From contig JAODTK010005835.1 in NCBI GenBank assembly GCA_026419785.1, positions 1-64,000 on the forward strand: a stretch of DNA of 64,000 bases, written 5' to 3'. The stretch is from Sclerodactyla briareus (lineage: Eukaryota; Echinodermata; Holothuroidea; Dendrochirotida; Sclerodactylidae). This document shows, in pieces, positions 21,301 to 36,300 of the stretch (positions within the stretch are counted from its first letter, which is position 1; each line of letters opens with the position of its first letter). Made by a program: the position numbers and the translations under genes. The notes under the pieces were generated by a model. It saw only the letters and a program-made list of their open reading frames with translations, made no database searches and was not told the DNA's origin.

Positions 21301-24300
21301 CATTTGCACATCATTGCATTTTTAACACCATGTTGGTGTTGTAGTTCAAAGTACAGTCAATTATCAGATGTATAATCAACTCTTTTAGCTCGTTCTTCTG
21401 TTCGTCACGTTCATTCTCAACTTCTAAACCGTACATCACTTAGTGGGTGGATGGAGCATGCATGCCACTGGCGGAGCTGAGTTATATTTTTGTTGGCATA
21501 GTGTGATTAGATTTTAATTAAATCCAAATAATCACCGCTTAGTCTTTTCCACGGTCATTCCCATTGAGCTCTCTGTGAGAGAAGTTAGTTTACATTACTC
21601 CCTATCTCAGCAGTGCAGCAGCTAGAAGGGGACTGTTTTAATTCATCTGTCAGCAGGTGGAATGAATAGAGGCAATGTGAGACTTAAAGGCAGTTCTGTG
21701 GGAAGATCGTCATCCCCTTCCCCATTAGTAGGTGCTGGCTGGACTTCACCCCTGTGTGGAACTACATCTAAGCAGATTCAAGTGTGTTTCTACTGTTCAT
21801 TGCTACAGACCTAAGAATGAGTTATGCAGGGTCCACATAAAAGTTGCGTTGGGTACATATAGCAAATATGCAGGCCTATGTGGACAATTACATGCAATTA
21901 TATAGAAATAGTCTAACAAGATCCCTGTTGATCTGGCTGGAAACGTCACTGTCACATGGTCACGTGATGAGACGATCCGTAGGCCTACGGTAATAAGTAA
22001 ATTAGATTTACCTAAAGCTGTTCTTTACATCACGTTCAACGATTTATCATGGCATCCATTACAATACTCCTTTTCTCTATTAATAGGGCAGATAGCAAAC
22101 AATAAAGCCTAAAAACTGAAATGGAGTTCTCAGACGAGTTCCAAGTTATATGAAATTTGCAATTCTCGAGTGCTTGACGGAGTATAGGTTTTTCAACTGC
22201 GGACGTTGTGATCGCATATGCTACCAAAATGCCCGTTAATCGAGAAAACTCTTCAATCCCCTCGAAATAACATAGATTACTCTTAAAGTACAGTCAATTA
22301 TCAGATGTATAATCAACTCTTTTTACTCGTTTCTGTTCGTTTCGTCACGTTCATTCATACTTCTAAACCGTACATCACTTAGTGGGTGGATGGAGCATGC
22401 ATGCCACTGGCGGAGCTGAGTTATATTTTTGTTGGCATAGTGTGATTAGATTTTAATTAAATCAAATAATCACCGCAATTAGTCTTTTCCACAGTCATTC
22501 CCATTGAGCTCTCTGTGAGAGAAGTTAGTTTACATCACATTTACACAGATTACTCCTAAAAATGTATTACTTTGAGTATTCACATTTTCTTACACTTAGG
22601 ATGTAATTTACAGCGGATTGGAGATTACCGACAGCTTCCGTATGTTCACTTATGACGAAACGAATTTCCATCCAAGGCTTCCGGAATTTACACAGATGTT
22701 GAACGACACGGGGAGGAAGTTCATCATCATAACACAGTATATTCCTTGGCAGTGTGAGGGGGCGGGGAGTGAAGCAGTAAGAGTGGATGGTACCAGGGTG
22801 GAACCAGGGGCCACAGGCGCGTCCCCACCAGCATTGGCAGTCATAAGAAAAAGGAGCACGAAAATGAAAATATTCTTTGCTTGAAATCGTTCATATATAG
22901 AATCATTTCACGACCCAGGCCTTCTACAGAAGCGAAAATATGGTGTAATTTTCACCTGGACACCCCTAAATCAATCATGCTTCTCACCTCTCCCCTATCA
23001 AAGATTTGGATACGCCCCAGGGTACAACCTTCAAACAGGTCAAATGAGGTTGTGCAATCGGAGCTGTTGAATAGCGGGCCTTAGATTTCTCAACCCATTT
23101 AATGTTAATTTCAAAAAGGACTAATAATTGAGCGGGAATCATCTTTTCGATATTATTAACATTTTCATATCGATGCCTTGGATGCAGCAATTTCTACAAT
23201 GGTGACGATGAAACTCCGCTGACCTGTAGGCTGTACCATGACTAACCACAACCATTCTTCGCTAACCCCGCATGCGCCACATTCACTAAGAATGCCAAGT
23301 GTGGTGGCAGCTTACCAACTATATGGACGTAGTATAACCTACCGACCTACGTATCGCTTTGTTCTTTGTCTGGGTGGTTTTGCAAAACATGAGCGAATGA
23401 ACCGTCCTCCAAACACAATAAGCTTGAATATTGACCCGTTATAGCGTGACGGGTCACTGAACTGAAGGCAAATAATTGAAAGTCAAGTGGCATCCGGCAG
23501 ATTCTCCCCAATCTAGCACACACAAAAAAAGAAAACAATATGAGAAAAATCTGCCGTTGGTGTTACCCAAAGCAAGTGTGATACAATGAAGATCTTCGGA
23601 AGTTGCAAGCCGTGTAGTGCAAAAACACACAACGATACTTCTCCTGTTACTATTAACGTATACTATGTACATATGTCCGCTTATGTAAAACCTGTTTTTA
23701 ATATTTTCTTAATTATTAGTCATAGTACAAATTATGTTATACACTTCCCATTACATTACTTTTCTTCAGACCCCGGGATCCCGAGCATATTCCCGAAACC
23801 CAAGACCTACTATACCCCATACTACTACCTGGAGAAATATGGACTCCTGTCACATCTCCAACACGACGCACAGACCAGTTACAGCTCAGGTATGTCGGTC
23901 AGTGGTGGAGAACAGGTTGCTACTGCTCGTTTGGATCTGAAAAAATATGTGATCATGGCGAACTAACCACATATTGGTGTTTACACTTACTCCGACGGGT
24001 CCGAGGCCGAATCCAGTCTCAACTAATCAGGCTATGGTTTGGCTATGCATTTCGGTTTTTGGTAGGATTTTGTTTGCTGGATTGTATATTTTAATAGAGA
24101 TAGATAGTAACCTGTGTGATGATCACTGACGCCAACTAGGAGAAAATTATCTTTTCTGAGAGGAATGTAGGATGGGTATATAGGTTTTGTGCGTAATGCC
24201 GCCACGCATAACTTCCAGGAGGGCGCGAGAACCGCTTCGCATTCACCGCAAAAAGGCCACTTTCTAGCAGAAGAGACTTCTCAGTCTACGGGAAAGTAGG

Positions 24301-33300: not shown

Positions 33301-36300
33301 GGCTTGCCATTGAAAATAACGATGACGATTTAACCCCGCCCGCCCGCCCGCCCGCGTGCATGGAAACGCGGCTTTAAGCTGTTTCCCAATTTGTTCGTGG
33401 GTATTAGTGTGTGCAGCTCATTCACTTTCACCACTACCCTTCAACGTCGTACGGCTATTGTTCTCTCTGACACATTGGCTATTGTTCCCTCTGTTGACTC
33501 TTTTACACGATATCATCCATCACTCTAAACTGTAATTGTGAACCGGCTTCACATACCATTGCAGCTGGTGTTGTGGCACCCACCTCATTGGATGTAAACA
33601 AAAAAGAATTGATGAAAATCAGACCTACGGTTGTTGAGGTATTGACATTTTATGATTTGGCTTCTATGCCACACCAACTCATGCACATTATTTGAATCGG
33701 CACCAGAAAACAACTACTCACTATGGATGGGTCATCCACCACCCAATCATGGAGTAATTCTCCTCCGTCTTCCATTTACCGTGTTTCACAAAAAAAAAAT
33801 AGCGGAAGCTACTCTACTTCAGCCAATGACCTTTTGATAATTATATCACATTTTCTGTTTAGGCGCTATATAAAGATGAAATAATAATAAATATACTAAT
33901 CTAATAATAATAATAATAATAATAATAATAATAATCATAATACTAATAATAATCATAATAATAATAATAATAATAATGAGGACAAAAAATACAATCCATA
34001 GTATTTATTAGCATCCTCACTGTTTTCACCAAAACAATTGACGGAAATCAGGCCTATGATTGTCGAGATATGAACATTTGTTATGATTGGCTTCTAAGCC
34101 CCGCGTGCACTCATGAATATTTTTTAGAGTAGCACTAAAAACAATACTGACCACTACTCACTATGGGAATCCACCACCCAAATGTGGGGGTAGGGGGGTA
34201 CTAGACCTCTTCCGTCGCCACGTACTATGCTAGGCCCTAGCCCCTCATGAATATTAATGAGGGCCAACAATACAATGCCTTAATATTTGTTGGCACTCCT
34301 CACTAATGTGACCCAAACAAGTTCGACGGAAATCGGACAAACGGTTGTCGAGATATTGCCATTCTATGATTTTGCTTCTGAACCCCGCCCACTCATGAAT
34401 ATTAATGAGATCAGCACCAAAATCAATAGAGATAATCTACTCACTATGGGGGCATCCACTACCCATGTATGAGAGTAAGTAATACCATATTTCGTCTGTC
34501 CACGTATCGTGTTCACAATATATTTTCAGCTGAACTACTTCAAGCCCTGCCCTCATGAATATTAATGAGGGCCAACAATACAATGCCTCAATATTTGTTG
34601 GCACTCCTCACTAATGTGACCCAAACAAGTTCGACGGAAATCGGACAAACGGTTGTCGAGATATTGCCATTCTATGATTTTGCTTCTGAACCCCGCCCAC
34701 TCATGAATATTAATGAGATCAGCACCAAAATCAATAGAGATTAATCACTCACTATGGGGGCATCCACCACCCAAGTATGGGGGTAATACCTTTTTCAGTC
34801 TTCCACTTATCGTGTTCACAATATTATTTTCAGTGAGCCACTTCAAGCCCTGCCCCTCATGAATATTAATGAGGGCCAACAATACAATGCCTCAATATTT
34901 GTTTGCACTCCTCACTAATGTGACCCAAACAAGTTCGACGGAAATCGGACAAACGGTTGTCGAGAATTGCATTCTATGATTTTGCTTCTGAACCCCGCCC
35001 ACTCATGAATGTTAATGGTCGGCAACAAAATAATAGGGCAACGCCTTCACATCATGGGCAGACCTAATATACCACGTTCAGTCTATTCAACGTACCTTCT
35101 TGAGTTACAGTGTCCCCAAGCAGAGTGTCAAGACACACAAACCATATGCCAACCTTGATACATAGGTGCATCGCTATCGCAAGGACCCAAACGGGGTGCC
35201 ACAACACACAAAAATCTGAGGTTAGAATTACTAGAATTAGGCAAATGTCCACGGATCTGTGTGTTCCTGTCAACAATCCATCCTCGGTTGACCACGATCA
35301 CCGATTCGCAGTATCCATCGAATCCATCTGTATTGAGTATAAGGATCTGCTTTTCATGCGCTATTGTTTTCTCATGTGCCAATTCGTGAGTTCCCCATCG
35401 AGTGGTGGATGCTAATATGCATGTCCGGCCGTGGGTGCTTCCCCCCCCCCCCTATATAGCCGCACCCTGCGACCTCACTCGTGCAATGGGGATGTGAAAA
35501 AGTTATATGCATTATTCGCGCTTAATGTTTCATGTTTTTGCAAGATTTAGTCGGCGTTAAAACAAAAACTCAGAGGGGCGGATCCTTCCTATATTTCCAA
35601 TTCAATAATTTCCATATTTTTCCTGCTATTTTGTGCGATTACAGAGCTTCCCCCCCCCCCACTATGTTATGGCAGGAAGATCATAAACGAACCTTCTGTT
35701 ACACGATAAAATTTCCTGGATCAGGCAGGTTCGCCGGTTATTGGTTGGGCAAGAATTCCTTTTAGTGGGAGGATTTACGATATTCAATCATCGGTGAGTA
35801 GTGGTTCGTGTCTCAGTGCCGGAAATAGTTGGAATAACCTGTCAACGCTTGCCAGTTCAAAATATGTATGTATGTATGTATGTATGTATGTATGTATGTA
35901 TGTATGTATGTATGTATTATGTATGTATGTATGTATGTATGTATGTATGTATGTATGTATGTATGTATGTATGTATGTATGTATGCGGGGGGATATTATC
36001 AGTTATTGCCAAGTAAAGTTCATGCGAACTTTTTTCAAGTAACATTAGTTCATCATGCAAAAGACCTAAGCGATGGTACACACTGATATGGTTGAAACAA
36101 ATTAAATATTTAAAAACCTCAACATTTGAGCAAGAATTGGCTCAGTAACGATATCACAATTATTGTTGATAGGCTTAGCATGAGCTTTGCCTAACGATTG
36201 GCCATTGGTTTTACCCAACTTGTTGGAAATGTTGAATACTTCTCCAACATGTTTTTGAATGATGAAGTAGGGGTACATAATGAGTGTCCAATGTTAACTA

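Follow-up and report, generated by a model that had tools for sequence, protein, structure and literature searches.

Glycoside hydrolase family 31 (GH31) proteins without catalytic residues are already known as a class from flies: dipteran acid (lysosomal-type) alpha-glucosidase homologues and clade IV of NET37 lack these residues, the mosquito proteins carry trefoil and NtCtMGAM domains, and both aspartates of the sandfly protein LlLysAglu1 are replaced by glutamine (PMC8063059). The locus considered here lies in a stretch of 64,000 nucleotides (hereafter the window; positions 1 to 64,000 of the forward strand of contig JAODTK010005835.1, assembly GCA_026419785.1) from the sea cucumber Sclerodactyla briareus and comprises a single GH31 gene on the forward strand, spanning approximately 9.1 to 45.7 kb. 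This gene is best read, with a probability of about 0.5, as encoding a non-catalytic GH31 homologue in which much of the barrel scaffold is retained while the sugar pocket has been rewritten. The window gene resembles the dipteran homologues as an animal GH31 protein without the catalytic Asp residues but differs from them in what stands in their place.

Likenesses are also found among the digestive and lysosomal glucosidases. With the N- and C-subunits of maltase-glucoamylase (MGAM) and with sucrase-isomaltase (SI), the window gene shares a trefoil-like start and barrel and C-terminal motifs in matching order; it differs from these enzymes in keeping 2 of 11 pocket residues and in comprising one GH31 unit in the window and the following 20 kb. 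Lysosomal acid alpha-glucosidase (GAA), a single GH31 unit with a trefoil, has the same architecture, whereas the positions of its D404, D518, R600, D616 and H674 are not kept in frame in the window gene. This particular instance was not met in the part of the listings covered by a literature search for non-catalytic GH31 proteins.

Catalytic and pocket residues

An earlier note, made from the letters of the window, had proposed a GH31 pseudoenzyme on the strength of two altered sites, of which the acid/base position (Asp542; numbering of the N-terminal subunit of human maltase-glucoamylase, NtMGAM, throughout) survives a check in all three frames and the substrate-binding position (Asp327) does not. 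At the acid/base position, in an exon at 35676..35793 located by phmmer and by spliced alignment, the codon AAG (35751-35753) encodes a Lys that phmmer places on Asp542 of maltase-glucoamylase (FAGSGKFAAHWLGDN(T/A)) in an alignment to the segment FAGSGKFAAHWLGDNT; the window reads YWLGK where the enzymes have HWLGD, and none of the three frames gives Asp. In remarking that the spacing to the next Trp is normal, the note overlooked an in-frame TAG (35763-35765) within that very spacing, four codons past the Lys. Its argument that single-base errors cannot account for the Lys is sound insofar as two substitutions are needed, although the assembly also has frequent indels. The substitution of Gly for the Asp of YTDIDYM, in the exon at 22600..22736 (found by phmmer, a sub-threshold Pfam match, spliced alignment and three-frame reading), can indeed be read in frame, but the neighbouring frame gives FTADW and the site is thus ambiguous. 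As phmmer matches this exon to sucrase-isomaltase from residue 8 onward only (E=0.0085), the Gly is placed at 327 by the spliced alignment and the sub-threshold Pfam match.

Several changes had previously gone unnoticed, among them those at Y299, W441, M444 and H600 and that at the nucleophile. The nucleophile motif FDGIWIDMNE reads FHGIIL/TDNE across two exons (25593-25610 and 27376-27387), giving Thr at D443 in an ungapped reading, with Asp next, where WIDMNE would be expected. The upstream exon (25501..25610; spliced alignment, hand-aligned across a one-base deletion) has Gln at 406, His at D438 and Ile at W441, and the downstream exon (27376..27460; spliced alignment and three-frame reading) has Thr at Asp443, Asp at Met444 and an in-frame TGA (27436-27438). 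The pocket aromatic (Y299 in NtMGAM, W376 in GAA) is Glu in an exon at 21160..21284 that was found by spliced alignment and matches Glyco_hydro_31_2nd below the cut-off (E=0.006). In the exon at 38985..39127, which in the spliced alignment carries two frameshifts, extra residues and a stop at the edge of the aligned piece, Asn replaces Asp571 (a single-base change) and Tyr replaces Phe575, while position 600 (GAA H674) is Arg or Ile depending on the frame and His in none. The region of Arg526 (GAA R600), in the Lys exon, is deleted or altered in frame and ambiguous. Four losses withstand three-frame reading, there being no Asp at 542, no His at 600, no Trp at 441 and no aromatic residue at 299 in any frame; those at 327 and 526 are ambiguous through possible compensating indels.

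The residues surrounding deoxynojirimycin (DNJ) in GAA are given as D404, D518, R600, D616, H674, W376, I441, W516, M519, W613 and F649 (PMC5653652), and correspond in NtMGAM to D327, D443, R526, D542, H600, Y299, I364, W441, M444, W539 and F575. At these positions, in the same order, the window has G, T, a gap, K, R, E, I, I, D, W and Y. The window thus retains two of the 11 pocket residues on this list, whereas among the remaining aligned positions at which NtMGAM, SI and GAA all agree it retains 108 of 174 (Fisher p=0.008), and the difference persists when the frame-ambiguous 327 and 526 are omitted (2/9, p=0.03). When the comparison is made with a wider set of 17 sites, the window retains 5 of the 15 that are invariant, as opposed to 105 of 169 others (p=0.05, computed with 106/169). 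The proposal of an active site lost within a preserved fold accordingly holds for the site, where the loss is wider than had been noted, but scaffold retention is only partial; the fold motifs GSGR and LFWDDGES are kept in frame, but one of the motifs cited with them is readable only across a frameshift.

A paralogue in the same assembly (C3163), comprising a trefoil and a GH31 unit of the SI/MGAM type with frameshifts in most counted exons, serves as a control. HWLGD, LTRS, GADICGF and RNHN are all present in frame in C3163, and DM is kept as well when placed by hand. C3163 retains all nine of the pocket sites that could be assigned in it (I364 and W441 being the two that could not), whereas the window retains one of these nine (p=0.0004). 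Three of the nine, 327, 443 and 444, were assigned manually in C3163, with two indels bridged at 327, a tolerance not extended to the window. Restricting the comparison to the six sites placed by the program (299, 526, 539, 542, 575 and 600) leaves six kept in C3163 and one in the window (p=0.015). On the wider set of sites, all 12 active-site invariants are conserved in C3163, as are 119 of 156 other invariants.

A further GH31 gene, on the reverse strand of contig C3156 (approximately 42-99 kb), reads WWLGE at its acid/base site in a weak piece of 10 residues and, by its motifs, resembles neutral alpha-glucosidase (GANAB).

Gene extent and family assignment

The gene limits proposed earlier, 22600..35793, cover only part of the gene, whose first, trefoil-like exon lies at 9078-9370 and whose end falls near 45.7 kb. 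The exons were located with a spliced, frameshift-tolerant alignment program written for this analysis, using as query the human NtMGAM catalytic unit, which was found identical to chain 2qly at all 671 positions. Aligned to the window, this query scored 820; the two controls, the opposite strand and a single shuffled copy, scored 298 and 318, respectively. Together with exon-level phmmer matches to MGAM and SI, this alignment establishes similarity to the GH31 fold and sequence family, and from its sequence the window gene is identified as a near full-length member of the maltase-glucoamylase, sucrase-isomaltase and acid alpha-glucosidase branch, with the domain order trefoil-like start, N-terminal beta-sandwich, (beta/alpha)8 barrel and C-terminal domains.

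Preceding the exons already described, the first exon (9078..9370) opens the trefoil-like and N-terminal domains, aligning to the NtMGAM N-terminus with 13/27 and 25/62 identical residues and one frameshift; Pfam gave no match to 9182-9370 alone. Part of an N-terminal beta-sandwich exon (15195..15248) has 11/18 residues identical to NtMGAM. Spliced alignment further placed exons at 16786..16959 (Asp203 kept, two frameshifts), 19198..19297 (Gal_mutarotas_2 at E=0.075, below the cut-off) and 20108..20220 (18/37 identical to NtMGAM). A tentative exon with a DPAIS motif (23770..23889) was chosen by eye and not by the program. Downstream of the Lys exon, spliced alignment supports pieces at 37753..37788 (8/11 identical), 39578..39804 (3' end provisional; also a phmmer match to MGAM, E=4.8e-10), 41548..41714 (with an internal frameshift), 42295..42361 (a C-terminal domain exon, with splice sites) and 43752..43848 (16/27 identical, one frameshift), and the last C-terminal exons (43998-44047, 44840-45014 and 45606 to ~45695) were read by eye and from splice sites, being weak in the spliced alignment. 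GT was found at all 16 donors checked (GTRAG at 11) and AG at all 18 acceptors, a count that is by itself biased in that splice positions were chosen by eye at exon ends.

Pfam matched three of 10 exon pieces, all three below the cut-off. A search of the PDB with 25512-25611 returned only the unrelated Gyp1 (E=0.67-0.78), and searches with 38985-39062 and 27376-27435 returned no match, so these three exons are assigned from the order of motifs and from the spliced alignment.

A second GH31 unit was not found in 1-12000, in 46500-64000 or in contig positions 64001-84000, stretches of unequal length that scored 194-260 on either strand with the catalytic unit as query, below the 318 of the shuffled control. 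A second haplotype or recent duplicate was sought by DNA search of the organism's own genome with 35650-39900 and rejected: of the 49 matches, the self match alone extends over exons and the others are repeats or short, which, with 40 of 6318 first-look candidates scored, is weak evidence of a single copy.

Frameshifts and assembly noise

Frameshifts are common in this assembly. In the alignment rows counted, there are 10 in 517 codons of the window gene, 13 in 459 codons of C3163 and 10 in 962 codons of three actin genes; the window differs significantly from neither actin (p=0.17) nor C3163 (p=0.41), and C3163 exceeds actin (p=0.02). These counts vary with the frameshift penalty, a lower penalty yielding more, and are based on 18 of 27 rows for the window (the nine dropped being short doubtful pieces with no frameshifts and one stop), 13 of 26 for C3163 (dropped rows carrying one frameshift) and nine of 15 for actin (dropped rows carrying one frameshift and three stops, and including one, 269037-268927, that fits well at 29/37). 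When all 15 actin rows are used, 11 frameshifts and three stops are found in 1082 codons (window versus actin, p=0.16). Given rates not significantly different from those of actin and C3163, the frameshifts of the window gene are neither proof of a pseudogene nor proven errors.

With regard to substitutions, the actin loci are identical to human beta-actin at 351/374, 321/352 and 282/356 positions, exons that align poorly being counted in the second and third. Exons of HSP70 contain stops, frameshifts and compensating pairs of indels (the pairs identified by eye), and paired compensating indels can also be read elsewhere in the window gene.

Other features of the window

Introns of the gene hold several further elements. 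Two similar direct copies of approximately 250 bases (21345-21600 and 22288-22540, by eye) lie in the intron before the exon at 22600, and long AT dinucleotide arrays (25005-25461 and 26020-26313) adjoin the nucleophile-strand exon. The large intron that separates the nucleophile exon from the Lys exon contains a broken leucine-rich-repeat reading on the reverse strand (28150-29420; LRR_8 at E=0.0014, below the cut-off), and a unit of approximately 300 bases (GTTCGACGGAAATCGGACAAACGGTTGTCGAG..) occurs in successive copies at 34221-35000 (by eye). An interspersed repeat of approximately 500 bases at 36372-36876 bears a box-B-like GGTTCGAATTCC by eye, ARAGORN finding no tRNA in it, and has at least 39 near full-length copies of 85-89% identity among the 49 matches listed in the DNA search (40 of 6318 candidates scored). 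Beyond the gene, a tetratricopeptide-repeat-like gene with apparent frameshifts occupies the reverse strand at 61500-64000 (TPR_19 at 62626-62940, E=1e-4, below the cut-off).

Alternative explanations

A number of observations weigh against a non-catalytic protein with a retained scaffold. The invariants outside the pocket are kept at 83 of 134 positions in the window and 102 of 134 in C3163 (p=0.02, computed with 84), a shortfall suggestive of overall decay or divergence; besides the in-frame TAG of the Lys exon and TGA of the nucleophile exon, another stop (39055) borders one of the aligned pieces; exons for residues 471-517, including HNLYG, were not confidently located by spliced alignment; and the locus is absent from genome-wide searches with PF01055 and PF21365 (9 and 5 matches). 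The pocket comparison itself weakens to 2/8 (p=0.06) once 443 is dropped along with 327 and 526, and the alignments behind the pocket counts are partly hand-assembled. Thr-Asp replaces Asp-Met at 443-444, and a one-codon register shift could set Asp at 443; the FTADW of the neighbouring frame means that two nearby compensating indels would mask a normal Ala-Asp at 327; and at 526 the neighbouring frame reads VTR. Part of this evidence would fit an unprocessed pseudogene, a duplicated GH31 gene released from constraint in which the loss of catalytic residues, of the reading frame and of some exons proceeds in parallel: the two stops in catalytic exons, the 10 frameshifts in counted exons, the missing HNLYG exons and the poorer retention of other invariants all point that way. 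This explanation nevertheless seems less likely, as no damage is apparent at the 16 donors and 18 acceptors selected by eye, the frameshift rate is not significantly unlike that of C3163 or actin, and the losses cluster in the pocket instead of being evenly spread.

Errors of a low-accuracy assembly might also disguise the catalytic residues of an ordinary active alpha-glucosidase. Compensating indels do occur in HSP70 exons, in the window gene and in C3163, D327 and R526 are restored in neighbouring frames, as Ala-Asp and Thr-Arg, respectively, and the Lys and TAG, which fit within a span of 15 bases, resemble a local error patch. Such an artefact is nonetheless improbable, given that D542K takes two substitutions with Asp in no frame, that H600, W441 and the aromatic at Y299/W376 are missing from all three frames, that the actin loci retain the identities given above and that the pocket of C3163 is kept despite similar noise. 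A GH31-fold protein with new catalytic chemistry might also be imagined, as the rewritten pocket gains Lys542, Asp444 and Glu299 and not just small residues; drift would account for these gains equally well, and the alignment register near 443-444 is uncertain, making this by far the most remote of the explanations considered.

Interpretation and outlook

Under the preferred reading of a non-catalytic GH31 homologue, the replacement of the nucleophile by Thr, of the acid/base by Lys, and of the pocket His and Trp would rule out the two-Asp GH31 mechanism of alpha-glucoside hydrolysis, and the rewritten pocket would probably be unable to hold glucose in the -1 subsite. The earlier suggestion of a glycan-binding role loses ground here: the five residues that hydrogen-bond the sugar are changed (443, 542 and 600) or uncertain (327 and 526), so that canonical glucose or glycan binding at the old pocket appears unlikely and a scaffold or contact role would be favoured. 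If translated, the product would most likely be a non-catalytic secreted, luminal or surface protein whose folded domains make protein contacts. We infer that the gene may be expressed, that most of its frameshifts may be assembly errors and that its product may act as a scaffold. Put at its fullest, and tentatively, the locus could represent a conserved, expressed GH31 pseudoenzyme with the whole -1 pocket rewritten, a non-enzymatic scaffold or receptor derived from a digestive glucosidase, with a canonical-pocket paralogue in the same genome.

With respect to method, the differing fates of positions 542 and 327 illustrate why an apparent loss of catalytic residues in a noisy draft needs checking in all three frames. 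Should the rewritten pocket prove real, the S. briareus gene would add a case to the conversion of glucosidases into scaffolds, and one for which a paralogue with a canonical pocket is at hand for comparison in the same genome.

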